The notes under the pieces are model-generated. The model was not told where the DNA came from. It made no database searches and saw nothing but the letters and a program-made list of their open reading frames with translations. The position numbers and the translations under genes are program-made. DNA of 64,000 nucleotides from Psychrobacter sp. JCM 18900. GTDB lineage: Bacteria > Pseudomonadota > Gammaproteobacteria > Pseudomonadales > Moraxellaceae. The stretch covers positions 434,001 through 498,000 of the forward strand of contig NZ_CAJHBL010000002.1 of assembly GCF_904846625.1 (NCBI RefSeq), in the 5' to 3' direction. Positions 15,906 through 28,607 of this stretch are shown piece after piece (within the stretch, counting starts at the first letter, position 1; each line of letters starts with the position of its first letter).

Positions 15906-17642
15906 TCATTTTTCTCTTGATCTTATATTATCTAAAATAAGAGCTTTCAATAAGCTAATTGCCATCAAAATAATGATGAGTGAAAAGGGTATTGCGGCAA
16001 TAATCATAGCCGAGGTAATAGCACTCAATCCACCAGCTAATAACAATGCTGCAATAACGGAAGCTAGAGCAAGACCCCACACGATGATGTGTTTTTGGCC
16101 ATTTTCAACTTCGACCTCACCTCCAGCATTTAGCATATTGACAACTAGCAGAGCAGAGTCAGCAGAAGTAACCAAATAGGTTAATAGCAATACCACCACC
16201 ATCGCTGATAATATTTTTGCCATCGTTGGCTCTAACATAAAGCCAATAATCTCGAATAGCTGAGCGGTTAACCCTGACTCAAATATTTTGCCACCAGCAA
16301 TACCACTTAATTCTAAATCGATGCCAGTACCACCAATGAAAGAGAACCAGACAAACAGTGTCAGACTAGGCGCTACGATACCAATCAATCCAAATTCACG
16401 AATGGTACGGTTTTTGGAAATACGTGCTAAAAACATACCAACGAATGGTGCAAAAGCAATCCACCATGCCCAGTAAAAAATAGACCAACTGGTTTGCCAG
16501 CTACCCAATTCAGTATTGGGATCCCAGACAGTAAGTACCATGGCAGGTAAGTGCAAGACGTAGGTAAAGATACCTTTGCCCAGCATTTCTAGGGCGAACA
16601 TAGAGGCCCCAAAAATCAAGAAAAAAGCTAAAAGGGAAAATGACAATACCATATTGATATTACTTAGCCATTTGACGCCGCGTCCAACACCTGACAAAGC
16701 AGAAATCATCGCTAGGCACATGACCACAAATAACGATAGTAACAATGCTCCGGTGGTTGGCTCAGGGGTATTAGTGTTGGTCACTAGCCAAGTAATACCA
16801 GTAATACTGTATAGCCCAGAAGCAAAAGAACTTAAGCCAATACCAATCGTTTGTGCAATACCAAATATCGTGGCAATTACTGCAGATATATCAATGATAT
16901 GACCCAATAACCCTTCTAAGTGTCTACCAAATAAAGGTGTTAATGCTGAGCGCATGGTTAATGGTAATCCACGAGAATAACTGAAATACGCCAAACAAAT
17001 ACCGACTAAGCAATAAGTTGCCCAAGCACTGATACCCCAGTGAAGAAAAGAGTAGCGAAAGGCTGCGTCTAGTGCTGACTCAGTTTTGGGTAATACCACG
17101 CCATCGATAGCAGTTAAAGTACTGGCCGCCACTTGGTCTTGATAAAAATTGAATACATCAGCACCTTGAGGTAGCTTGAGACCATTAGCATTCAACGCTG
17201 ACATGATTATTTCTTTGGACATAATAGTGTCGGGATTGTTTGCCAAATGCCAAATAGGTTCGGCAGCACTATAGGTGAGTACACCAATACCAATACCTGC
17301 CCCAAAAATCATGGAAAACCATGAAAAATTTGAAAATTCAGGTTTCCCATTAGGGTCGGAGCCAAGTTTAGTGCGTCCAAACGATGGCCATAAAATAGCG
17401 GTCAGGCAAACAAATATATAAAAAGCGATAGAATACGTATAGTAGCTATTGAGATTGGTATAAGACCAATTTTTCATATTATCCAGAATCGCACCGGAAC
17501 GATCAATGTCGCTTAAAATCCAGATAACAACTAATGTCACCAAAACCTTCGATGTTATGGTGACAATACGGTTAAAACCTTTGTAGAAACCTTTGTCATG
17601 AGTTTTTATATTTAACTCTGTCAATGGGGGACGAATAGGCAT
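15906..17642 (-). CDS. BCCT-family betaine/carnitine/choline-type transporter
   Basis: The 578-residue protein has 12 predicted membrane segments and strong BCCT signatures. These are MIFGAGIGIGVLTYSAAEP (substrate/Na+ site region), FLHWGISAWATYCLVG, GVGRGVKWLSNIN and the Trp-rich SIFYWAWWIAFAPFVGMFLARISKNRTIREF. BCCT carriers import quaternary-ammonium compounds. Trigonelline is N-methylnicotinate betaine, so this is a good candidate for its uptake, although the NCS1 carrier of the same operon competes for that role. It is the last gene of the minus-strand operon, with a good aagga ribosome site and a terminator behind it. Confidence 0.9.
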   Translation of the reverse strand: MPIRPPLTELNIKTHDKGFYKGFNRIVTITSKVLVTLVVIWILSDIDRSGAILDNMKNWSYTNLNSYYTYSIAFYIFVCLTAILWPSFGRTKLGSDPNGKPEFSNFSWFSMIFGAGIGIGVLTYSAAEPIWHLANNPDTIMSKEIIMSALNANGLKLPQGADVFNFYQDQVAASTLTAIDGVVLPKTESALDAAFRYSFLHWGISAWATYCLVGICLAYFSYSRGLPLTMRSALTPLFGRHLEGLLGHIIDISAVIATIFGIAQTIGIGLSSFASGLYSITGITWLVTNTNTPEPTTGALLLSLFVVMCLAMISALSGVGRGVKWLSNINMVLSFSLLAFFLIFGASMFALEMLGKGIFTYVLHLPAMVLTVWDPNTELGSWQTSWSIFYWAWWIAFAPFVGMFLARISKNRTIREFGLIGIVAPSLTLFVWFSFIGGTGIDLELSGIAGGKIFESGLTAQLFEIIGFMLEPTMAKILSAMVVVLLLTYLVTSADSALLVVNMLNAGGEVEVENGQKHIIVWGLALASVIAALLLAGGLSAITSAMIIAAIPFSLIIILMAISLLKALILDNIRSREK

Positions 17643-17680
17643 AGTTTCTTCCTTAAAACTAAATGCAATGAATTATTAAT

Positions 17681-19129
17681 TTATAGCCATTCAACGATGG
17701 TATTGCTCAGATACTTACCCTTTATATATTTTCCTAGTCTCAATGCTTCTTTATAGGCTTTTGTAGCACTGTCATGAGTGAAATTAGCTAACTCGTCAAT
17801 ACATTTATCTTTATCTAAAGTCGCCAAGTTATTATTCAAAGCCAACTGTTCAGAGAAAAATGTTTGTTGCAACTTGCTGAACTCAGGCTTTACTAATTTG
17901 TTGGCTATAGCGTCATAATTTCGGTAACAAAGTTGCCCGACTTCTTGAAATGCCCACCAAGCTGAATCTAAGTCATAATCACCAGTGTTTGCTATTTGAT
18001 AAGGGTGAGGTATGTCACTTGTCACTATATAAAAAGGGACGAAGCAACTTAACTTACTAGCTGCAGGTGCTATCCACATACACCCTTCTTGCATTTCATC
18101 AGCTTCAGAAAAGCGCTTATTGCCTTTAAATTCAAAGACCATGGAAAAGACGGTCCCACTCTGTCCAATACTGTGGCTTACCTCCATCCAAAGAGGGTTG
18201 CGAGCCATCCCTGCTTCTTGGTATTTGGATAAGTCATATTCAGTTCCTTCAAAGGTATCGCGCAAAATATCCATCATATTTAAAATAGATATTTTTTTAC
18301 TAGGCTTGCCTTTATAAATGTATAAACTAGGATTATGTTTTAACTCACATAATCTATGTACACAGTTATATCTTCTCAGTCTGTTTACATCCTTATCTGT
18401 ACCACCGAAGGCCTCCGAAACAATCGGTCCTTGACCAAAAATTTTGGAAAAATTAAAAGTGTCGCCTTCATGATATAGGTCGCTCGCTAGAGCATATGAG
18501 CGCAGATGTGATGAATACATGAATGTATCATCGTCTAGAAAATCAATCTCTTGTGTACCAAAACAGTTAGGGCGGCATTCAACTTCATCATTATTTACCT
18601 TTCTTGCTACCCATAGCCCACCTGGAACAACCTCTAAGAAGAATCCTTCATTGGGGTCGGCTACTGCTATGGTAACGGCACCAGAACCGCCTTCTATAGA
18701 AGATACGGTGTAGCCGTATTGATCGATTAGTTCACCAATCATTTCAATAGATTGCCTAGCCGTTTTACCTCTTTCTAAAATTAAAATTGATAGATCATCA
18801 GCTTCTAAGATGTCTGTATCTTGTTGGTTGTTGTGAAAGTTATAGACACCTGTCATGCCTACTGCAACCTGATTTTCGTTCATACCATCAGCCCATGAAA
18901 GATGCCGAGTACCTGTCTCATAGTCACAAACTGTATATGTGTAGGCAAATGTCTCTGGCAATTGTGGTATTTCTATACCCTTTACGGTGAGAAAAGTATC
19001 TTCACTGCCATACGATTTATGAGGTTTGTGATGGACTTGACCTGGACTACCTGGCCAATCATTGTTTACACCCATAATCACGCAGCCAGTTGTGGTGGTA
19101 TTACGCCCTGCTATGACCGAGAAACACAT
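17681..19129 (-). CDS. C69-family (PepD-like) N-terminal-nucleophile hydrolase
   Basis: The 482-residue protein begins Met-Cys (MCFSVIAGRNTTTTG). In the C69 dipeptidase family Cys becomes the N-terminal nucleophile after processing. GVNNDWPG, EGGSGAVTIAVADPNEGFFLEVV and WMEVSHSIGQSGT are further family features. No signal peptide is seen, so it is cytoplasmic. Family members cleave dipeptides or related amide bonds. The known trigonelline pathway has no step for it, so it may release a betaine or heterocyclic acid from an amide conjugate, or serve a side substrate (speculation). It lies between two transporter genes, with short gaps (51 and 38 bp) and a clear aaggag site. Confidence 0.85.
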   Translation of the reverse strand: MCFSVIAGRNTTTTGCVIMGVNNDWPGSPGQVHHKPHKSYGSEDTFLTVKGIEIPQLPETFAYTYTVCDYETGTRHLSWADGMNENQVAVGMTGVYNFHNNQQDTDILEADDLSILILERGKTARQSIEMIGELIDQYGYTVSSIEGGSGAVTIAVADPNEGFFLEVVPGGLWVARKVNNDEVECRPNCFGTQEIDFLDDDTFMYSSHLRSYALASDLYHEGDTFNFSKIFGQGPIVSEAFGGTDKDVNRLRRYNCVHRLCELKHNPSLYIYKGKPSKKISILNMMDILRDTFEGTEYDLSKYQEAGMARNPLWMEVSHSIGQSGTVFSMVFEFKGNKRFSEADEMQEGCMWIAPAASKLSCFVPFYIVTSDIPHPYQIANTGDYDLDSAWWAFQEVGQLCYRNYDAIANKLVKPEFSKLQQTFFSEQLALNNNLATLDKDKCIDELANFTHDSATKAYKEALRLGKYIKGKYLSNTIVEWL

Positions 19130-19180
19130 GGTTATTACTCCTTTTTATGCTGTATATCTCTCAATATTCATATCTCAGAT

Positions 19181-20602
19181 TCAGACTGAAACGTTCTGAG
19201 TGCTAGCTGCACTCTTGTTTGCTGCACCTCTACCTAGAAGGTAATAAACAATACAAGTCACTAAGAAACTAAAGAACACACTACCTATAGTATTACTGAC
19301 AAAAGAGATATTCGGAGCAACGAAGTATGACCCTGCACCTATAAACCAAGAGATAATAGCCATGATATTGATGCCATTGCCGTACCAGTACGGTCCAGTT
19401 TTGTCGTTGAATTTAGTAATGTCATAGTTTTGCTTACGCATTAGATAGTAATCAACCAACATAATAGCGATGCAAGCTGGAAAAAATGCGCCTAGGAAAA
19501 TGAGAAAGACTTGGAAAGTATCTAGGAAGGAGCCTAGTATTAGAGGAGAGAATCCAATGAGAGCAGCTAACACACCCACGCTAATCATTGAGATTTTGGC
19601 TGGTAATTTTTCGATAATATTGGCAGTTGAAAAGCCACCCGAATATATATTGATCATATTAACGGCAACGGTAGAGATGACAATTAATATGTTTGCTACC
19701 ATGCCCATGCCCAATGTGCCAGTAATATAAGCTAAATCTGCAGAGTATGGGTCAAACAAACCATTGTTCATAACGGCAACGGCGATTGCACCAGCGGCAC
19801 CAACAATAAGAAACCAGAGCATACCAAATGCTGCACCAAGCATTGGCCAAACTGTAGCTGCTCTTTTGCTAGTCGTATAGCGAGTATAATCAGCGATACA
19901 CATGACCCATGCAAAGCCATTAGCCAAGACAATATCTAGACCACCACCCATGGTTAAGGACCAAGTAGTGTTCTTTGGGTTGTCTGCTAATGACCAATTC
20001 CATAGATCAGCAAAAGAAACTAAGGTAAAGACTTTGTATGATATCCAAACACTTAACACTACTAGACAAACGACAGCTATCATTTGCGCTTTGGAGATAT
20101 ATTTAGCCCCGTATACAGCGGTAGCAGTTGAAACAAATAGAATTAGAAGAACAGAGATAATAATATTACCCGCGGAGTAAATATCGCCGCCAGTAAAGGA
20201 GGTGATTATCGTAGATAACGCTGTGGCTGCAATATAAGTATTTACACCACACCAACCAACGAATTGTAACGCATTAAGAACGGACGGTAATTTACTACCT
20301 TTGATGCCAAAAGGTACTCGGCACAAACCCATGTTAGTTGACGCTATTTTATAGCCCATGAATCCCACTAAGGCTAGAATAATATAAACGATCGGATTAC
20401 CTATTAAAGAGGCAATAATGACTCCACTCAAACCCAAAGCACCCATGATGGTGCCCATATACCAAGTAGTAGGATTCGCGTTTGCGCAGATCCATGTGGA
20501 CATCATCTCCTTGCCACCATAGTATCTTGCGTCTAAGGGTACATATTCATCAATCGCATAATCGCGAACTTTGTTTTGTTGAGTATCATTGGTATTTTCC
20601 AC
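19181..20602 (-). CDS. NCS1-family permease (cytosine/purine/N-heterocycle type)
   Basis: The 473-residue inner-membrane protein has about 12 hydrophobic segments, the NCS1 N-terminus with SLIGNPIVYIILALVGFMGYKIAST, and GFAWVMCIADYTRYT in the middle. PACIAIMLVDYYLMRKQNYD near the C-terminal helices is a CodB-type motif. NCS1 carriers import nucleobases, allantoin, hydantoins, thiamine or nicotinate-like heterocycles. In this operon trigonelline or a related N-heterocycle is likely. Translation appears to start at a GTG (20602) with an aagga site. It lies between the tgnC-like gene and the C69 gene. Confidence 0.88.
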   Translation of the reverse strand: MENTNDTQQNKVRDYAIDEYVPLDARYYGGKEMMSTWICANANPTTWYMGTIMGALGLSGVIIASLIGNPIVYIILALVGFMGYKIASTNMGLCRVPFGIKGSKLPSVLNALQFVGWCGVNTYIAATALSTIITSFTGGDIYSAGNIIISVLLILFVSTATAVYGAKYISKAQMIAVVCLVVLSVWISYKVFTLVSFADLWNWSLADNPKNTTWSLTMGGGLDIVLANGFAWVMCIADYTRYTTSKRAATVWPMLGAAFGMLWFLIVGAAGAIAVAVMNNGLFDPYSADLAYITGTLGMGMVANILIVISTVAVNMINIYSGGFSTANIIEKLPAKISMISVGVLAALIGFSPLILGSFLDTFQVFLIFLGAFFPACIAIMLVDYYLMRKQNYDITKFNDKTGPYWYGNGINIMAIISWFIGAGSYFVAPNISFVSNTIGSVFFSFLVTCIVYYLLGRGAANKSAASTQNVSV

Positions 20603-20726
20603 TGTAAATTCCTTTTCATATCTTATTTAAGGTAGATCTAAAATCATGGAAGATTTTTTTAGCAAAGATCAGACAAATAGCTATAACATTCTCTTCAAAA
20701 CAAAGTCCTCTAATGACATTTATTCA

Positions 20727-22214
20727 TTACCTCATGATAAAAGGATTGGCCATCGGCTCCGCTGAGATATTGATCCATGTCGTTTTTGTACGAGTATATT
20801 GAAGTACAGATTCGCTACCAGCTTCACGGCCATAACCAGACTGATTGTAGCCACCGAAGGGTGCTGTAGGAGAGATAGCTCGATAGGTGTTTACCCAGCA
20901 AATACCTGAACGAATCTGTTGTGAGACACGGTGAGCTCTCGCTAAGTTTTGAGTAAATACACCAGAGCCTAAGCCATAGACGCTGTCATTTGCCATAGCA
21001 ATGACTTCGTCTTCAGTGTCGAAAGCCACCAAAGACATTACAGGTCCAAACATCTCAACGCTTTGGGTTTCGATATCAGTATGAGGACATTCGACTAAGG
21101 TAGGAGTAAAGTAATTGCCGCTAGCTAAAGCAGGGTCGGTAGGAGGCTGACCACCGAAACGAATGGTAGCGCCTTGTGAAACTGCCTTCTGAAGAGTATC
21201 TTTAATACGATCGACTTGAGCTTTAGTACATAAAGGACCTACGTGAGTACTGGTATCAAGAGGATTGCCGATGACAATATTTTTCGCTTTTTCTTCTACA
21301 CGTCTGATAATTTCAGGCAGGATAGAGCGATGAACAAACCCGCGAGAACCCGCCACACAAGACTGTCCAGAAGCACCAAAGTTTCCAGCAATTAGACCGT
21401 TGGCCGCACTTTCTAAGTCAGCATCATCAAAGACGATAATTGGCGATTTACCACCTAACTCTAAGCTAGTAACTGCAAAGCTATTGGCAGAGTTTCTGAC
21501 TACATGTCTTGCTGCATCGGGCCCACCAGTAAATGCAATTTTATCTACGTCGGGATGGCTAGTAAGTGGAATGGCACAGTTTTCAGCATCACCTGTGATT
21601 ACAGATACGACACCTTTAGGGAAGCCTGCTTCTTCCACGAGCTCTGCAAAAGCAAACATAGGGCAGGGCGCTATTTCAGAAGCCTTCAAAATGATAGTGC
21701 AACCTGCTGCTAGCGCTGGTCCTAGCTTAGTCGCTGTTAAAAACATTTGCGCATTCCATGGAACAACAGCAGCTACTACGCCAATAGGTTCACGTGTAGT
21801 AAAAACGTGCATATCTGACTTATCAATTGGTAGTGTAGCGCCTTCTACTTTGTCGGCTAGCCCTGCAAAGTAACGATAATAATCGCTGACATAACGAGTT
21901 TGAGCCACAGTTTCGTGAGCCAGTTTGCCACTGTCTGTCGTTTCAATTCTTCCTAGTTTTTCGGCGTTTTGCTCGATTAGATCTGCTAATTGATACAGTA
22001 ATTTTCCGCGTTGAGTGGCAGTCATCTTAGCCCATTCAGGGTTGCTCAAAGCAGCCTTGGCACCATCGACAGCGCGTTCGACGTCAGCAGGGCTAGCACA
22101 GGCAAAAGTTGCCCATGCTTCATTCGTCGCAGGGTTATAGCTGTCTAGGACTTGGTTGGTGCTCCCTTCGCACCACTCGCCATTGATATAGAGTTGATAA
22201 TGAGGTTTGGCCAT
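20727..22214 (-). CDS. tgnC: NAD-dependent aldehyde dehydrogenase, TgnC-like
   Basis: The 495-residue ALDH has the standard motifs: VVPWNAQMF, ITGDAENCAIPLTSHPDVDKIAFTGG, the catalytic Glu in LELGGKSP and the catalytic Cys in SGQSCVAGSR. In the Acinetobacter baylyi trigonelline pathway TgnC oxidises the hydroxybutyrolactone product of ring cleavage (MFMB, an aldehyde equivalent) to the N-methylformamido-methylene succinate. Position directly after the monooxygenase component gene (62 bp) and a ggag ribosome site support membership of the same operon. The ALDH assignment is certain; the specific step follows from gene order. Confidence 0.8.
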   Translation of the reverse strand: MAKPHYQLYINGEWCEGSTNQVLDSYNPATNEAWATFACASPADVERAVDGAKAALSNPEWAKMTATQRGKLLYQLADLIEQNAEKLGRIETTDSGKLAHETVAQTRYVSDYYRYFAGLADKVEGATLPIDKSDMHVFTTREPIGVVAAVVPWNAQMFLTATKLGPALAAGCTIILKASEIAPCPMFAFAELVEEAGFPKGVVSVITGDAENCAIPLTSHPDVDKIAFTGGPDAARHVVRNSANSFAVTSLELGGKSPIIVFDDADLESAANGLIAGNFGASGQSCVAGSRGFVHRSILPEIIRRVEEKAKNIVIGNPLDTSTHVGPLCTKAQVDRIKDTLQKAVSQGATIRFGGQPPTDPALASGNYFTPTLVECPHTDIETQSVEMFGPVMSLVAFDTEDEVIAMANDSVYGLGSGVFTQNLARAHRVSQQIRSGICWVNTYRAISPTAPFGGYNQSGYGREAGSESVLQYTRTKTTWINISAEPMANPFIMR

Positions 22215-22275
22215 GGTGGTTCTCCAAATTTCTTATTGGGTTATCTGTTTATCATTTACTAGAAACTAAGTATGG

Positions 22276-23313
22276 TTATGCAAATGCTGGCATGACGTCA
22301 TCAATAAAACGGCGCAAGGATGCCTGTTTCTGCTCGAAAGTCATACTAGAGTCAATCCAAAATGCAAACTCGTCATAACCCAATCCTTCATATACTTTGA
22401 GTTTTTCGATGACCTGATCAGATGTGCCAATAGGCATGTTTTCTAACATTTTTTCAGGAGCATACATGTCGATTTTTGCCATTTCTTCTTCGCTCAATGG
22501 CTCAAGCAGTCCTTGACGAATAGGACGTTCGTTTTTGAACCACGCGCCAAAATAGCAGTAGAAACGGCTGATACATTTGGCCGCTTCAGCAACGTCATTC
22601 GCATCACTACCAACATAAGCATGTTGCAAAAGCATGATTTTCGGGTTTTTACCTTCGCCGTGTTCAGCTTTGGCATTGTTAAAAGCAGTCATTAGATTTT
22701 GAATCTCTGTCATCCCTTGCCACAGTGGAGTGACTTGAACGTTACAACCATTTTCTACCGCAAAGTTGTGGCTGTGAGGGTCACGTGCTGCAATCCACAT
22801 TGGTACGCCACCTTTTTGTAAAGGTTTTGGCGCTGAAGTTGTCGATGGGAATTGGGTATATTTTCCATCATGGGTATAGTCGCCTTTCCACAATTGCTGT
22901 ACAGCAGGAACCAGCTCACGCATACGCCCGCCAGCTTCCATTGCATCCATACCAGGCATTAAACGTTCGTATTCGAAATTATAGGCGCCGCGAGCAATTC
23001 CCAGATCCAATCTTCCTTTGGTGAGAATATCAGTCATTGCTGCTTCACCAGCAAGTTTGATAGGATGCCAAAATGGCGCAATGACTGTACCTGTACCCAG
23101 TCGCACATTTTTAGTGTGATGAGCCAGATCAACTAGGTTTAAAAACGGATTAGGAGCAATGGTAAAATCCATACCATGGTGTTCACCAGTCCAGATGGCA
23201 TGCATTCCACCTTGGTCAGCCATTTTTGCTAGCTCGATAAAATCGTTATGGAGCTGTTGATAGCTCTGTGATTCATCAATTCTTTCCATATGTAAAAATA
23301 AAGAAAACTTCAT
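22276..23313 (-). CDS. tgnA: LLM-class flavin-dependent monooxygenase, TgnA-like (trigonelline ring cleavage)
   Basis: The 345-residue luciferase-like monooxygenase has WTGEHHGMDFTIAPNPFLNL, VRLGTGTVIAPFWHPIKLAGE, GRLDLGIARGAYNFEYE and a late FWIDSSMTFEQKQASLRRF. TgnA of A. baylyi, with its reductase, inserts oxygen into trigonelline and opens the pyridinium ring. The N-terminal MKFSLFLHMER and the combination with an adjacent flavin reductase, ALDH, hydrolase and SSADH match that locus. It lies between tgnC-like and tgnB-like genes with an aagga site. Activity on another N-heterocycle is the main alternative. Confidence 0.82.
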   Translation of the reverse strand: MKFSLFLHMERIDESQSYQQLHNDFIELAKMADQGGMHAIWTGEHHGMDFTIAPNPFLNLVDLAHHTKNVRLGTGTVIAPFWHPIKLAGEAAMTDILTKGRLDLGIARGAYNFEYERLMPGMDAMEAGGRMRELVPAVQQLWKGDYTHDGKYTQFPSTTSAPKPLQKGGVPMWIAARDPHSHNFAVENGCNVQVTPLWQGMTEIQNLMTAFNNAKAEHGEGKNPKIMLLQHAYVGSDANDVAEAAKCISRFYCYFGAWFKNERPIRQGLLEPLSEEEMAKIDMYAPEKMLENMPIGTSDQVIEKLKVYEGLGYDEFAFWIDSSMTFEQKQASLRRFIDDVMPAFA

Positions 23314-23378
23314 AACACAATTCCTTTGTTTATTTTTTAGTGTGACTTTTAACTTAGTATTGACGATAAATATAAAGT

Positions 23379-24290
23379 TTAATGAACATTGCCGTGTTCT
23401 TCTTGACCGACATATACACCGTACAACCCATTTTTATTTTCAGTTGCGTAGCGTGTCATCATCGAACTCATGGCCGGTGTAATAAAATGCTGTTCGGAAA
23501 TACTATCGATTGAGATATATTCACCTAGCCCTTTAGGGTCAGCCGATTGAGCGGTAGCTCGATAAAAAATGTAATTGGTATTTGTTTTAGTATTCTCATA
23601 AATAGAGAAGACAGCGCCCAACTGAACGTCAATATTACTGTCTGCTAAAAACTGTTGGATCGTGCTAACGGCATTGGTATTGTCATCGGTAGTCGTACTA
23701 GGCAAGGTTGCTTTGCCATCCTTTTGACTGAGTAGGATTTTTCCATTGTGCTCTATAATCACACCCACATTGACATGTTTTTCTTGGGTACTGATTTCTG
23801 CGGCTTCACGCTCTAGTGCTAAGCTGAAATAACCTCCAGACGCGTAGCCCAAGCCATATCCTTCACGAGATGAAAAATCAAGCACTTCACCAATCAAGAG
23901 GTGATGATCACCAGCGTCGAGATTACGGTCTGTTTTACAAGAAAAATGTGTCAAGGCACCTTTTATAATTGGATTGCCGTATTCATCTTTATGCCACTCA
24001 ATTTGACTAAAGCGCTCGTCTTTTGAGCCCGCAAAGATGTTCGAGATGTTCTGTTGATCTTCGCTCAAAATATTGACAGCAAAATGTTCACAATTAGCGA
24101 ATACATCGAAGCTAGATAACGATTTTGCTGGGCATACTAGTAGAAGTGGTGGATCCAGTGATACTGATGTAAAGGAGTTAGCAGTGAAGCCAACAGGTTT
24201 GCCTTCATTGGACATCGCAGTTATCACAGTAACGCCAGTCATATAGCTACCAAAGGCTTTGCGTAGGGTTTTAGGATCAAGTTGCTTCAT
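23379..24290 (-). CDS. tgnB: Flavin reductase with C-terminal Nudix-like domain, TgnB-like
   Basis: The 303-residue protein has an N-terminal flavin-reductase-like domain (about 8-165: FGSYMTGVTVITA, GFTANSFTSVSLDPPLLLVCP, HHLLIGEV). It supplies reduced flavin to the LLM oxygenase encoded 65 bp downstream. Residues about 173-300 (VGVIIEHNGKILLSQKDGK) look like the first strands of a Nudix fold. The catalytic Nudix box (GX5EX7REUXEEXGU) is absent, so it is probably a binding or regulatory module. It corresponds to the reductase component TgnB of the trigonelline monooxygenase. An agaggt ribosome site precedes the ATG. Confidence 0.82.
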   Translation of the reverse strand: MKQLDPKTLRKAFGSYMTGVTVITAMSNEGKPVGFTANSFTSVSLDPPLLLVCPAKSLSSFDVFANCEHFAVNILSEDQQNISNIFAGSKDERFSQIEWHKDEYGNPIIKGALTHFSCKTDRNLDAGDHHLLIGEVLDFSSREGYGLGYASGGYFSLALEREAAEISTQEKHVNVGVIIEHNGKILLSQKDGKATLPSTTTDDNTNAVSTIQQFLADSNIDVQLGAVFSIYENTKTNTNYIFYRATAQSADPKGLGEYISIDSISEQHFITPAMSSMMTRYATENKNGLYGVYVGQEEHGNVH

Positions 24291-24325
24291 GAGAACCTCT
24301 TTTTAAAAATAGGCGTGCTTTTAGA

Positions 24326-25162
24326 TTAAGCAAGCGTCATATTGTGTGAGTCACATTGAGTAAAAAATGTTGCCAATGCAGCGTTAACCGTATTCGAATG
24401 TGTCATTTGAGTCATATGACGGGCTTCGGGTACGATAACGGCATCAGCATTGGGTAATATATTTGCCATTGCCAGTGACATTTCGGGCTTAGAGTTAACA
24501 TCCAGTTCGCCTGTTAGAAATAACGCAGGTACTGTAATGGGTCGCAAGTCCGCTTCTGTAATACCACGTAAATGTGCAAACATCTGATAGGCTCGTGCAT
24601 ATCCTAAGCGACTGCCATTATCTAACCATTTTTGACATAGCTCTGCCTCTGAGCGGTATTTAGGATTGCCATCGAACCATCTGGCTATTGGTTGCTCAGT
24701 GACATTTTGATTGAGATCATTGATGAGTGATTCGGCTCTAGCTTGTACATTTTGAGCCGCCTCATCTGGACGATTATAAATCGCATTCAATGCCGCGATA
24801 CCGAGTACTACTTTGGGAGACGATACGGCAGTCTGTAACGCCATCATCGCGCCTAATGAGTGACCAACAATGATGGCTGGTTGACCCACAACATTATTAA
24901 TGAATGTTGTTAGCACATCAGAAAAGTCTTCCAACGTCAGGACAGGGTTGGATAATAAATCGCTCTCCCCATGTCCTGGCATATCAATCGCATAACAATG
25001 ATAGTGTTTAGTAAATACAGACAGCTGTTGGTACCAACTCTCTGCTCGTAAGCCCACACCATGGATAAAAACAATTGGGGTGGATTTTTCATTAACGCTA
25101 TCACTGGCATTTACACTGTAATGATAAGCGATTCCGTTGGATGTTTTACGTGACCACTTCAT
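24326..25162 (-). CDS. tgnD: Alpha/beta hydrolase, TgnD-like amide hydrolase
   Basis: The 278-residue alpha/beta-hydrolase has the oxyanion strand HGVGLRAESWYQQ and DMPGHGES. The nucleophile elbow is GHSLGAM (Ser), the acid is in GELDVNSKP and the catalytic His in EARHMTQM. In the trigonelline pathway TgnD hydrolyses (E)-2-((N-methylformamido)methylene)succinate to succinate semialdehyde, methylamine, formate and CO2. RutD of uracil catabolism is a similar fold in a similar operon, but RutB and RutC are missing here, which argues against a Rut system. Operon spacing is 35 bp to tgnB and 13 bp from the AA_synth gene. Confidence 0.78.
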   Translation of the reverse strand: MKWSRKTSNGIAYHYSVNASDSVNEKSTPIVFIHGVGLRAESWYQQLSVFTKHYHCYAIDMPGHGESDLLSNPVLTLEDFSDVLTTFINNVVGQPAIIVGHSLGAMMALQTAVSSPKVVLGIAALNAIYNRPDEAAQNVQARAESLINDLNQNVTEQPIARWFDGNPKYRSEAELCQKWLDNGSRLGYARAYQMFAHLRGITEADLRPITVPALFLTGELDVNSKPEMSLAMANILPNADAVIVPEARHMTQMTHSNTVNAALATFFTQCDSHNMTLA

Positions 25163-25175
25163 TAATATCTACTCC

Positions 25176-25778
25176 CTATACGGCTGCTGGATTATCTAGA
25201 TCGCGGCCCAAATCTTCTAAGTCTTGATAACGATCACCAATACGATGATGCGGACGGCCACCAGTAGCACCTCCTAAGACGATGATTACCTCATCATCAC
25301 GAGGGGCATCTGGAATGGCGAATTGAATGGTCAGATAATGTGAACGTCGACCGACATCATCTTTATCCATCAACGGCACCATAATGGGGGAGTTTGCACC
25401 GCCACGCATGTTAGTAAACGATAAATAACTACTGGCAGATAAAGCTTCACGATAAAAATTGCCAAAACGCAGCGTATGAATCAGGCCTGAGGCGTGTTCG
25501 ATTTCACCATTAAGTCCAACGACAGCCGCTTTGCCATACGCTTGTATTTTGTCTGCACCGCCAGCTAGAGCGATGATCTTATCGGTCATTAGCTTACCTA
25601 ATACAGGACCGAAGGCTTGAATCTCAGGTTTTAGATCTTCGACATAACGTCCTGCCCACGGGTTAGTAATCACCGCCGCAACAGCAAACATTCTAAGCGG
25701 TGTATCAGCGGCCTTGAATCCTTCAATAAACGTTTCTTCCTCAAAAGTTACGATTTTTCTGATTTCTGGTTTTAGCAT
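25176..25778 (-). CDS. AA_synth (PF06684, formerly DUF1185) family protein
   Basis: The 200-residue protein carries LRMFAVAAVITNPWAGRYVEDL, LIALAGG-like IIALAGGADKIQAYGKAAVVG, GEIEHASGLIHTLRFGN and PRDDEVIIVLGGATGGRPHHRIGDRYQDL. All are typical of the AA_synth family, whose name is historical and whose reaction is not established to my knowledge. The start at 25778 (MLKPEIRK) is supported by aggggac; a start 13 codons upstream has no ribosome site. It is the first gene of the minus-strand catabolic operon. Family members often neighbour LLM monooxygenases in N-heterocycle or amide clusters, so a hydrolytic or tautomerase role on a ring-opened intermediate is possible (speculation). Confidence 0.82.
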   Translation of the reverse strand: MLKPEIRKIVTFEEETFIEGFKAADTPLRMFAVAAVITNPWAGRYVEDLKPEIQAFGPVLGKLMTDKIIALAGGADKIQAYGKAAVVGLNGEIEHASGLIHTLRFGNFYREALSASSYLSFTNMRGGANSPIMVPLMDKDDVGRRSHYLTIQFAIPDAPRDDEVIIVLGGATGGRPHHRIGDRYQDLEDLGRDLDNPAAV

Positions 25779-25818
25779 TATTGGTCCCCTACAGTGATGA
25801 ATAATCTTTAACAACATT

Positions 25819-25898
25819 GGTATACCATAATACGGTATTAAATTAATTACTAGCTTTTTTTGAAAAAAAATATTATGGTATGCCGTAATACTATATTA
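25819..25898. promoter_or_regulatory. Paired TgnR-type operators in the divergent promoter
   Basis: The 187-bp gap between the AA_synth gene and the GntR gene holds two facing copies of TATTATGGTATRCC. One is read on the minus strand within 25819-25840 (ggtataccataatacggtatta) and one on the plus strand at 25871-25884. Each copy also contains a local GGTA/TACC dyad. Such paired sites suggest the adjacent GntR protein controls both arms of the module. Confidence 0.65.
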
Positions 25899-25965
25899 AA
25901 GCGTACTGTTTTTTTGCTTCACAGTCGTTATACTCTGCATTTACATCTTACAAAATAGAGGTCGT

Positions 25966-26619
25966 ATGTTAGAGAAAGTGGAAAAACCAAAAACGTTGAA
26001 AGAGACAACATTAGAACAGCTACGCTTAGCGATCATGATTGGACAGCTTGAACCAGGTAAGCGTTTGGTTGAGCGCACTATCTGTGAGCAGTTGGGTGTC
26101 AGCCGGACTGTTGTACGTGAATGTATAAGACATTTAGAAAGTGAGCACTTAGTGACGTTTTCTGCGGGAGGATCTTCAGTTGCTGTTTTAGAAAGTGATG
26201 AGATTCGCCAAATTTACCATTTACGTACGATGCTAGAGAGCGAAGCAGTTCGCTATTGTGCTGAGCAAGTGACACCTGAGCTAGTAGATAAGTTACAAAA
26301 CCACTTAGTCCAGATTCGAGAAAACTTACATGCAGGAGATGTGGTGGAGGCGCTTGCGCATTCTTATTCATTTTACGAGCATTTATTCGTGACGGCTGGT
26401 ATGACGGTCGCATGGGAGTTAACGGAGAGATTGAATGGACGTATTGGTCGTTTGCGTTTTATGACTTTATCTACACAAGAGCGTGCTGCTAAAGGTCCCA
26501 ATAACTTGCAAGATATCGTTAATAGTATTGCCAAAGGTGACAGTAAGTCGGCAATCGAAGCTTGTCGAAAACACATTGATGAAGCCTGCCATATGGGGTT
26601 GCATCTTAATAAACAGTAA
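25966..26619 (+). CDS. tgnR: GntR/FadR-subfamily regulator, TgnR-like
   Basis: The 217-residue protein has an N-terminal winged helix (LKETTLEQLRLAIMIGQLEPGKRLVERTICEQLGVSRTVVRECIRHLE, about residues 12-58). An FCD ligand domain follows, with IRQIYHLRTMLESEAVRY and a late HIDEACHMGLH supplying acidic and His metal-site residues. It is divergent from the catabolic operon and 12 bp upstream of the CMD gene. The paired operators in the gap make it the likely pathway regulator. A pathway carboxylate is the likely effector. An agagg site precedes the ATG. Confidence 0.85.
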   Translation: MLEKVEKPKTLKETTLEQLRLAIMIGQLEPGKRLVERTICEQLGVSRTVVRECIRHLESEHLVTFSAGGSSVAVLESDEIRQIYHLRTMLESEAVRYCAEQVTPELVDKLQNHLVQIRENLHAGDVVEALAHSYSFYEHLFVTAGMTVAWELTERLNGRIGRLRFMTLSTQERAAKGPNNLQDIVNSIAKGDSKSAIEACRKHIDEACHMGLHLNKQ

Positions 26620-26631
26620 GAGGGGGTAGTA

Positions 26632-27012
26632 ATGGACAAACAACGATTTGAATTGGGGCTTACTCAACGCAAAGCCACTTTGGGTGCTGAGTACGTCGAG
26701 AAAAACCTACAAGCTGCTGACGATTTTAACCGTCCATTTCAAGAAGCCATGACCGAATGGTGCTGGGGATTTGGATGGGGCGATGAGACGATTGATGCCA
26801 AAACCCGTTCATTAATGAATTTAACCATGATTGCTGCCTTGGGGAAAATGCATGAATGGGAGTTGCATCTAAATGGAGCAATTAATAACGGTTGTTCTGT
26901 TGAAGAGATACGCGCTGCTATACATGCTATTGCGATTTATTGCGGTGTACCACAAGGTGTAGAGTGCTTTCGAATTGCCCGTGAAGTGCTGACCACACGC
27001 GGACTGTTGTAG
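26632..27012 (+). CDS. Carboxymuconolactone decarboxylase (PcaC-like) family protein
   Basis: The 126-residue protein resembles PcaC: RFELGLTQRKATLGAEYVEK, TRSLMNLTMIAALGKMHEWELHLNGAINNG and AIHAIAIYCGVPQGVECF. It is the decarboxylase type rather than AhpD, as the CxxC peroxidase motif is lacking. It would decarboxylate or isomerise a small lactone or carboxylic intermediate. The published trigonelline route has no such enzyme, although that route passes through a hydroxybutyrolactone and loses CO2. The gene lies between tgnR-like and tgnE-like genes (12 and 26 bp gaps), with a strong ggggg site. Confidence 0.88.
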   Translation: MDKQRFELGLTQRKATLGAEYVEKNLQAADDFNRPFQEAMTEWCWGFGWGDETIDAKTRSLMNLTMIAALGKMHEWELHLNGAINNGCSVEEIRAAIHAIAIYCGVPQGVECFRIAREVLTTRGLL

Positions 27013-27038
27013 TCCTAAAAAACCAGTTGGAGTGAGAA

Positions 27039-28490
27039 ATGCAATTAAAGAATAATGCGTTGTTTAGACAACAAGCCTTTATCGATGGCGTGTGGTGTGA
27101 TGCTGATAATCAAGAAACCCATGAAGTACTGAATCCTGCAACGGGAGAGCTGATTGGTACTGTACCAATGATGGGAAGTGACGAGACTCGACGCGCCATT
27201 GAAGCTGCAGATATTGCTCAATCAACTTGGTCGAAAAAAACAGGTAAGGAACGTAGTAGTATTTTGCGTCGTTGGCACACGCTGATTGCTGAAAATATGG
27301 AAGACTTGGCTGTCTTAATGACCCATGAACAGGGTAAACCCATCGCTGAAGCAAAAGGTGAAATACAAAGCGGGCTGGATTACTTAGAATGGTTTGCTGA
27401 AGAAGCGAAACGTATCTACGGTGATTTTATCCCTGGGCACATGCCAGATAAGCGTTTAGTCGTGATTAAACAACCTGTTGGCGTCACTGCAGCTATTACC
27501 CCATGGAATTTTCCGCACTCTATGATCAGCCGCAAAGCAGGTCCTGCGCTAGCAGCGGGATGCCCGATGATTGTCAAGCCTGCAATGGAAACGCCTTATT
27601 CTGCGTTAGCAATGGCTTATCTTGCTCAGAAAGCTGGTGTTCCTGACGGTATATATAGCGTAGTCACAGGTGATCCGATAGCGATCGGAGAGGAGATGAC
27701 GACAAACGCTTTAGTTAAGAAAATCAGCTTTACTGGGTCCACGCGGGTGGGGAAAATTCTAATGAAACAGTGTGCTGATACTGTCAAAAAGATGTCATTA
27801 GAATTGGGAGGTAATGCACCTTTCATCGTTTTTGATGATGCAGATATAGATGCTGCTGTGATAGGCGCAATGATGAGCAAGTATCGTAATAGCGGTCAAA
27901 CATGTGTATGTGCCAATCGTCTTTTTGTACAGGCCGGTGTTTATGATGAATTTACCAAAAAACTAGCAGAGCAAGTACGAGATATAAAAATTGGTAACGG
28001 TTTAGAAGAAGGAATAACACAAGGACCTTTGATTTCTCAGTCTGCAGCAGATAATGCGGAGGCGCTGGTTGCTGATGCGAAAAGTAAAGGAGCAACTGTA
28101 TTATGTGGTGGTCAAAGAGTTGAGGCTGGTAGTAATTTTTTTGAGCCAACTATTTTGACCGACGTCAACAACGATATGCGCGTCGCAGATGAAGAAATTT
28201 TCGGTCCTATTGCGCCAATTTTTAAATTCGAGACAGATGAAGAGGGTGTTGCTCTCGCAAATCGTACTGAATATGGTTTGGCAGGTTATTTCTATAGCCG
28301 AGATATCGGGCGTGTATGGCGTATTGCTGAAGCACTCGAAGTGGGTATGGTCGGAGTCAATACTGGGATGCTGACGACAGAGTTGGCACCGTTTGGGGGT
28401 ATCAAAGAATCCGGCTTGGGACGTGAGGGCTCAAAGTATGGTATCGAAGAGTATGTTGAGACTAAGTATATTTGTTTAGATATTAATTAA
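27039..28490 (+). CDS. tgnE: Succinate-semialdehyde dehydrogenase, TgnE/GabD-like
   Basis: The 483-residue ALDH is of the GabD type. It carries FIDGVWCDADNQETHEVLNPATGE, AITPWNFPHSMISRKAGPALAAGC, FTGSTRVGK, the catalytic Glu in LELGGNAPF, and NSGQTCVCANR with the catalytic Cys next to a second Cys (CVC), as in redox-regulated GabD enzymes. It oxidises succinate semialdehyde to succinate, feeding the TCA cycle. In the trigonelline route this is the last step (TgnE). It is the third gene of the plus-strand arm, followed by a strong terminator. Confidence 0.88.
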   Translation: MQLKNNALFRQQAFIDGVWCDADNQETHEVLNPATGELIGTVPMMGSDETRRAIEAADIAQSTWSKKTGKERSSILRRWHTLIAENMEDLAVLMTHEQGKPIAEAKGEIQSGLDYLEWFAEEAKRIYGDFIPGHMPDKRLVVIKQPVGVTAAITPWNFPHSMISRKAGPALAAGCPMIVKPAMETPYSALAMAYLAQKAGVPDGIYSVVTGDPIAIGEEMTTNALVKKISFTGSTRVGKILMKQCADTVKKMSLELGGNAPFIVFDDADIDAAVIGAMMSKYRNSGQTCVCANRLFVQAGVYDEFTKKLAEQVRDIKIGNGLEEGITQGPLISQSAADNAEALVADAKSKGATVLCGGQRVEAGSNFFEPTILTDVNNDMRVADEEIFGPIAPIFKFETDEEGVALANRTEYGLAGYFYSRDIGRVWRIAEALEVGMVGVNTGMLTTELAPFGGIKESGLGREGSKYGIEEYVETKYICLDIN

Positions 28491-28560: not shown

Positions 28561-28607
28561 AAAAAGGCTGCTAACACTATGCATAACATAGTGCTAGCAG
28601 CCTTTTT
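28561..28607 (+). terminator. Strong terminator after tgnE
   Basis: The 21-bp arms aaaaaggctgctaacactatg / catagtgctagcagccttttt enclose a 5-base loop and are nearly perfect. A diverged copy is at 5127-5169. Confidence 0.85.

Follow-up and report, generated by a model that had tools for sequence, protein, structure and literature searches.

Positions 15906 to 28490 of the window, by which we mean the whole 64,000-nucleotide stretch of Psychrobacter sp. JCM 18900 analyzed here (contig NZ_CAJHBL010000002.1, positions 434,001 to 498,000), hold a gene cluster resembling the trigonelline (tgn) operon of Acinetobacter. All eleven open reading frames (ORFs) given in a preliminary description of this region were confirmed, arranged in two divergent arms as described there, with intergenic gaps, taken from the ORF coordinates, of 13–124 bp in the minus arm and 12–26 bp in the plus arm. 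A Pfam scan of ten of the eleven identified BCCT, Peptidase_C69, NCS1, Aldedh, luciferase-like, flavin reductase, alpha/beta hydrolase, AA_synth, GntR/FCD, and CMD domains; ORFs and domains thus bear out a two-arm operon with AA_synth in first position that also encodes CMD, C69, BCCT, and NCS1 proteins. The same description had matched the set to the tgn pathway, and the luciferase-like oxygenase (LLM), flavin reductase, aldehyde dehydrogenase (ALDH), alpha/beta hydrolase, succinate-semialdehyde dehydrogenase (SSADH), and GntR regulator are indeed present, in an order like that of Acinetobacter sp. PK01 (Table 1).

Table 1 Genes and predicted operator sites of the tgn-like cluster, in window coordinates
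Feature	Position	Strand	Basis
BCCT-family carrier, likely betaine (trigonelline) uptake, substrate inferred	15906..17642	-	PF02028, 461.9 bits
C69 Ntn-hydrolase, Met-Cys start, optional add-on	17681..19129	-	PF03577, 150.4 bits
NCS1-type permease, co-occurs with C69	19181..20602	-	PF02133, 133.7 bits
ALDH, TgnC-like, predicted oxidation of ring-opened aldehyde	20727..22214	-	Sequence identity
LLM, TgnB-like	22276..23313	-	63.5% to annotated tgnB of Acinetobacter sp. PK01
Flavin reductase with C-terminal extension, TgnA-like	23379..24290	-	PF01613; 41% to PK01 tgnA
Alpha/beta hydrolase, TgnD-like, predicted deformylase	24326..25162	-	GHS motif, Asp221, Arg248-His249
AA_synth (PF06684), TgnF homologue	25176..25778 (start corrected from 25817)	-	PF06684, 241.7 bits
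Predicted operator site 1, TTGGTATACCATAATAC	25817..25833	no strand	Conserved in Psychrobacter and tgn-type loci
Predicted operator site 2, ATGGTATGCCGTAATAC	25875..25891	no strand	Genome pattern scan
GntR/FCD regulator	25966..26619	+	PF00392 and PF07729
PcaC-like CMD protein, predicted 2-formylsuccinate decarboxylase	26632..27012	+	TIGR02425, 120.1 bits; mini-cluster L139
SSADH, TgnE-like	27039..28490	+	TIGR01780, 704 bits (cut-off 646.35)

PF06684 occurs once in the source genome. Homologues of AA_synth start at Met14 of the ORF as listed, which is likely 13 residues too long, so that the true start, judged from the alignment, is probably the one given in Table 1, 38 bases from the nearer operator site. 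In the hydrolase, the GHS motif, Asp221, and Arg248-His249 are conserved in all 18 rows of alignment A3 (residue numbers in alignments A1 and A3 are the listed-ORF numbers minus one), and the profile matches include RutD (3v48). The flavin reductase aligned over residues 3–302 with 3rh7, a full-length match (213.8 bits), and its C-terminal extension (residues about 165–303) had no Pfam match. SSADH scores above its family cut-off, the CMD protein falls below the PcaC equivalog cut-off (155.7 bits), and the C69 protein falls below the C69 dipeptidase equivalog cut-off (NF033678, 163.4 bits versus 250).

Among 100 genomes of the genus, the source genome included, AA_synth was found in 16, and each of these 16 clusters carries AA_synth, hydrolase, reductase, oxygenase, ALDH, GntR, and BCCT genes. 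CMD is present in 15, the exception (L028) being a locus cut by a contig end, and an SSADH of at least 55% identity is present in 11, L028 being cut here too. This gene content and its conservation were observed directly. The arrangement is not due to chance, as 15 more Psychrobacter genomes and other proteobacteria share its core. In genome G024, AA_synth was matched in two reading frames (G024:C236:8113-8735, L039), which reflects a frameshift or a sequencing error. No paper describing this Psychrobacter operon emerged from literature searches on trigonelline, homarine, and PF06684/DUF1185, which were judged incompletely, by titles and abstract openings.

Outside the genus, we defined a group of 12 "tgn-type" loci, 11 of them drawn from the 326 plasmid records in which an oxygenase was matched and the twelfth from the Moraxellaceae genome G153 (L125). 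The plasmids come from Rhizobium, Sinorhizobium, Pantoea, Leisingera, Marivivens, Thioclava, Acinetobacter, and others. AA_synth is the first operon gene in 11 of the 12 loci, and the twelfth (L126) is cut by the record end before AA_synth. In G153, AA_synth, hydrolase, reductase, oxygenase, ALDH, GntR, SSADH, and CMD genes are all present, and one tgn-type locus (L130) has a fused hydrolase-reductase as its second gene. The only locus encountered that bears tgn names is that of Acinetobacter sp. PK01 (L020), in which the annotated tgnA, tgnB, and tgnC match the window order, AA_synth stands first, and GntR is divergent, followed by NCS1, SSADH, and CMD. The window proteins are 63.5% (oxygenase), 41% (reductase), 54% (ALDH), 37% (hydrolase), 58% (SSADH), and 63% (AA_synth) identical to those of PK01. 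Comparing the window with the Acinetobacter tgn clusters (A. baylyi ADP1 and PK01), it becomes clear that reductase, oxygenase, ALDH, hydrolase, AA_synth/TgnF, SSADH, CMD, NCS1, GntR, the core order, and the operator are common to both. However, the window lacks the DUF1330 gene beside GntR, with CMD starting 12 bp after GntR, and Psychrobacter has CMD and SSADH on the same arm as GntR and carries BCCT in all 16 clusters but C69/NCS1 in only 4.

A second sample was fetched by AA_synth similarity, and the best 80 of 257 loci comprised 67 marine, 2 Oceanospirillales-type, and 11 Psychrobacter loci; because of this choice of bait, the frequency of AA_synth among the marine loci is not evidence. 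Eleven duplicates of Psychrobacter loci L025–L039 (L040–L048, L099, and L108), the short loci L001, L003–L019, and L120–L124, rows shorter than 80% of the query, and ALDH rows below 40% identity were dropped before counting, and loci L133–L140 stand outside the trees and counts. The marine set (Rhodobacteraceae, Granulosicoccus, and others) shares the order AA_synth-hydrolase-(reductase)-oxygenase-ALDH with the window, and its AA_synth proteins are 72–82% identical to the window protein. It differs in having a divergent LysR gene in 59 of 67 loci (protein cluster c67, 59 loci outside Psychrobacter, one member confirmed by Pfam), no operator, no linked SSADH, and altered hydrolase and oxygenase residues. 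A reductase gene is present in 43 marine loci and absent in 23, while L074 has AA_synth alone. In those 23 (L054, L059, L088, and 20 more), the hydrolase-oxygenase gap is below 200 bases, too small for a flavin reductase gene, so their oxygenases must borrow a reductase. When the genus of Ruegeria conchae was searched with the oxygenase first, 42 of 54 genomes had a match (1e-100), and AA_synth lay within 4 kb on the same strand in 42 of 42. A third type, from Agrobacterium and Rhizobium etli (L024 and L131), shares all five enzyme families and CMD, with AA_synth within or near the set, but differs in identity (LLM 42–44%, hydrolase 25–26%), order, and regulator, and has no operator.

The regulator and its predicted binding site separate these groups. 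By blastp, GntR homologues were found at every Psychrobacter locus, both Oceanospirillales-type loci, 11 of 12 tgn-type loci (L126 is cut), and none of the 67 marine loci. Likewise, within 600 bases upstream of the AA_synth start, the palindrome ATGGTATACCAT occurs with at most one mismatch in all 16 Psychrobacter loci, both Oceanospirillales-type loci, and 9 of 11 tgn-type loci, the other two tgn-type loci having it at two mismatches. It was found at this threshold in neither third-type locus and in none of the 67 marine loci, none of which matched within two mismatches either (L116 offered just 115 bases). A scrambled palindrome matched none of 98 rows with at most one mismatch and three marine rows at two. 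In the source genome, sites 1 and 2 are the only matches to the longer pattern ATGGTATACCRTAATAC with at most one mismatch, and two more occur at two mismatches; a reversed control of ATGGTATACCRTAATAC also gave two matches within two mismatches. While the conservation of the operator was directly observed, the two sites between the arms are predicted targets of the GntR protein, through which it would control the operon, and the direction of this regulation is likewise a prediction.

Our analysis points to a likely Psychrobacter tgn operon, under predicted GntR control, that would take up trigonelline (N-methylnicotinate) and degrade it to succinate, methylamine, formate, and CO2. The substrate and every reaction are predicted, with the step chemistry modeled on the tgn pathway of A. 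baylyi ADP1 that Perchat et al. reportedly described in 2018. The BCCT carrier would bring the betaine into the cell, and the flavin reductase would supply the luciferase-like oxygenase, which would open the ring. ALDH would then convert the aldehyde to N-methylformamidomethylene-succinate, from which the alpha/beta hydrolase would cleave the formyl group to give an unstable enamine. AA_synth (TgnF) is expected to hasten breakdown of this enamine to 2-formylsuccinate and methylamine, CMD to decarboxylate 2-formylsuccinate to succinic semialdehyde, and SSADH to form succinate from the latter. Neither the 16 Psychrobacter genomes nor G153 yielded a full-length alpha subunit of N-methylglutamate dehydrogenase (partial Psychrobacter matches are at ~31%), so methylamine is probably set free rather than consumed by that route. 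The Rut pyrimidine pathway is said to be similar in using a luciferase-like oxygenase, a flavin reductase, an alpha/beta hydrolase, and, once the ring is open, a helper of chorismate-mutase fold, but its substrate is another, and its helper reportedly belongs to another sequence family. The cluster had been put forward as the best candidate for undescribed biochemistry in this region; this is not borne out, and we regard it instead as a modest variant of a known pathway, without undescribed core biochemistry.

Nor is there support for the view that AA_synth and CMD, together with C69, are unexplained enzymes: AA_synth is a TgnF homologue, and CMD adjoins SSADH in both PK01 and G153. An SSADH of at least 55% identity is also present in 2/2 Oceanospirillales-type and 4/12 tgn-type loci (57–58% identical to the window copy), and in none of the 67 marine loci, where the best matches, in 62, reach 31–37%. 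On the Nitratireductor sp. OM-1 plasmid NZ_CP029209.1 (L139:3259-7381), SSADH (57%), hydrolase (37%), and AA_synth (66%) genes face a GntR-CMD arm, with the operator at one mismatch. No oxygenase was found at 1e-30 on this 858-kb plasmid, the chromosome lying outside the search. The grouping indicates that AA_synth and CMD belong with the lower half of the pathway, and we infer that the two accelerate breakdown of the ring-opened product into succinic semialdehyde. The plasmid-borne half-pathway may receive N-acylaminomethylene-succinate from elsewhere. A terminator-like hairpin of 20 pairs, reported for the minus strand, follows the window SSADH at 28561–28607.

How AA_synth and CMD would contribute can be read in two ways. 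In the more ambitious one, which we offer only tentatively, PF06684 would be an enamine hydrolase family and CMD a 2-formylsuccinate decarboxylase, catalyzing two steps of N-methylpyridine breakdown that are reportedly spontaneous; PF06684 would then be the catalyst shared by the trigonelline pathway on land and its marine sister, and C69/NCS1 would open conjugated trigonelline to some Psychrobacter. In support of the predicted place of AA_synth in the tgn operon, its invariant columns (20/20 rows) include Glu90, Arg176, and, by our own mapping, four histidines described near the cavity of BB2672. BB2672 (3byq) and SPO0826 (2qtp), both PF06684/DUF1185 proteins, are 36–37% identical to AA_synth in structural alignment, and their genes sit in other contexts according to the published account. 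In addition, two AA_synth paralogues stand in tandem at G200:C11:92203-93320 and in 12 other genomes of the Ruegeria genus, a 2qtp-type copy being paired with a neighbor ~45% like it; these pairs lie apart from the oxygenase operon, and PF06684 may serve a second pathway there.

Alternatively, neither protein would be a pathway enzyme, AA_synth serving to stabilize SSADH and CMD to detoxify a by-product of the N-methyl chemistry, which we consider doubtful though possible. A passage in one paper (PMC7913881) names TgnF as the DUF1185 homologue of the A. baylyi trigonelline pathway, reports that it "stimulates" TgnE-dependent oxidation, and describes its homologue HcdD as having no measurable effect in its own pathway, the last two of which would suit a stabilizer. 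However, AA_synth is well conserved in marine clusters without a linked SSADH and retains all four histidines near the BB2672 cavity. As for CMD, related proteins occur in Rieske and sarcosine-oxidase-type clusters, as a detoxifier might, but its sequence lacks the CxxC pair that is said to be peroxidatic. CMDs 70–76% identical to that of the window lie in betaine-type clusters with a Rieske/FAD-oxidoreductase (L134, L135, L137, and L138, named from annotation), three of which (L135, L137, and L138) also hold ALDH, and related CMDs occur in further gene settings too. Hence, CMD is recurrent in tgn-type clusters, while its role in the pathway is unproven.

These varied settings speak against a fixed role for CMD, and the ancestry of several enzymes weighs against a simple reading as a tgn operon. 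AA_synth, at 58–65% identity to tgn-type proteins, is nearer to the marine set. ALDH is 67–74% identical to marine proteins (median 71%, where the operon's own ALDH was matched) and 54–57% to the 12 tgn-type proteins (median 55%), and 28 of its conserved positions follow the marine set against one that follows tgn. Both thus differ from the Acinetobacter operon in lying nearer the marine set. Quick trees also join Psychrobacter to the marine set, with support of 81 for the oxygenase and 88 for AA_synth, neither starred. By trees (oxygenase and AA_synth) and identities (ALDH and AA_synth), all three fall beside the marine set and not inside the tgn clade, although deep branches are weakly supported; we do not count their placement in that clade as a defining feature of the pathway. 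The oxygenase, for which a position far from its tgn counterpart had been named as a refutation, has the same median identity, 65%, to the marine and tgn-type sets, and its 63.5% identity to the annotated tgnB is not distant, though the tree sets it beside its marine sisters.

This ancestry raises homarine (N-methylpicolinate) as the substrate, degraded to 2-oxoglutarate or N-methylglutamate, as the marine sisters may do. The marine clusters with a divergent LysR gene (Rhodobacteraceae and Granulosicoccus), with which AA_synth, ALDH, and LLM group, are possibly the homarine operon of Ferrer-Gonzalez et al. 2026, which reportedly comprises five genes and a regulator. Several features nevertheless make a homarine operon unlikely in Psychrobacter. 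The window has GntR and its operator, not a marine-type LysR, and the SSADH and CMD arm would be unexpected, on chemical reasoning, for a 2-carboxylate. Moreover, marker residues of the oxygenase and hydrolase follow tgn. At LLM38, all 16 Psychrobacter rows and 11/12 tgn-type rows carry His, and 64/65 marine rows carry Arg; at LLM190, the residue is Cys in 16/16 and 12/12 but Phe in 63/65 marine rows. Similarly, hydrolase residues 221 and 248, the latter adjoining the predicted catalytic His, are Asp and Arg in 16/16 Psychrobacter and 10/11 tgn-type rows, whereas the marine rows have Glu at 221 (58/64) and mostly Ala at 248 (58/64), with Arg there in five and Lys in one. The missing full-length N-methylglutamate dehydrogenase alpha subunit also argues against homarine, and Mgd takes part in homarine catabolism according to a statement in a citing paper. 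In favor of homarine, one study reports it to be commoner in seawater than trigonelline (PMC8269262); a later correction states that homarine values had been overstated (PMC10134881). We read the Psychrobacter enzymes as sharing descent with the marine set, yet apparently retaining, by these sequence marks, tgn-type control and the final stage through succinic semialdehyde.

C69 and NCS1 stand apart from this core. Only 4 of the 16 Psychrobacter clusters (those of the window, G079, G035, and G091) hold the pair, and C69 was found nowhere else among the 100 genus genomes at 1e-60, in none of 273 other gammaproteobacterial genomes at 1e-70, and not at 1e-30 on the plasmids that supplied 11 of the 12 tgn-type loci. 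Named C69 relatives outside the genus (46–59% identity) include proteins of Allofustis, Pseudoflavonifractor, Dehalobacterium, and Treponema, and their presence in anaerobic Firmicutes and Treponema suggests gene transfer. The tight spacing of the genes had been taken to place all the extra enzymes in the pathway, and their co-occurrence with tgn homologues had been proposed as a check. AA_synth, found in 11 of 12 tgn-type loci, and CMD do recur in such clusters; for C69, which is present in so few clusters and beside NCS1, spacing fails to make it a core step, and C69/NCS1 form an optional module that perhaps frees trigonelline from a conjugate. That the operon as a whole acts on another N-alkyl pyridine-3-carboxylate or a conjugate (e.g., N-methylnicotinamide or an ester of trigonelline), C69 being the first hydrolase, is quite improbable: the confinement of C69 and NCS1 to this cluster in 4 of 100 genomes implies that they serve something tied to it, but the core works without them in 12 of 16 clusters, and the plasmids supplying most tgn-type loci gave no C69 match.

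Overall, the likely assignment of this operon to trigonelline would extend a pathway described in soil Acinetobacter to Psychrobacter, trigonelline being a common plant compound. The combination of GntR, ATGGTATACCAT, and SSADH offers a marker set that separates tgn-type clusters from very similar marine LysR-linked clusters, which are possible homarine degraders. For PF06684, still named for "amino acid synthesis," our analysis points to a catabolic function in the later stages of N-methylpyridine breakdown.

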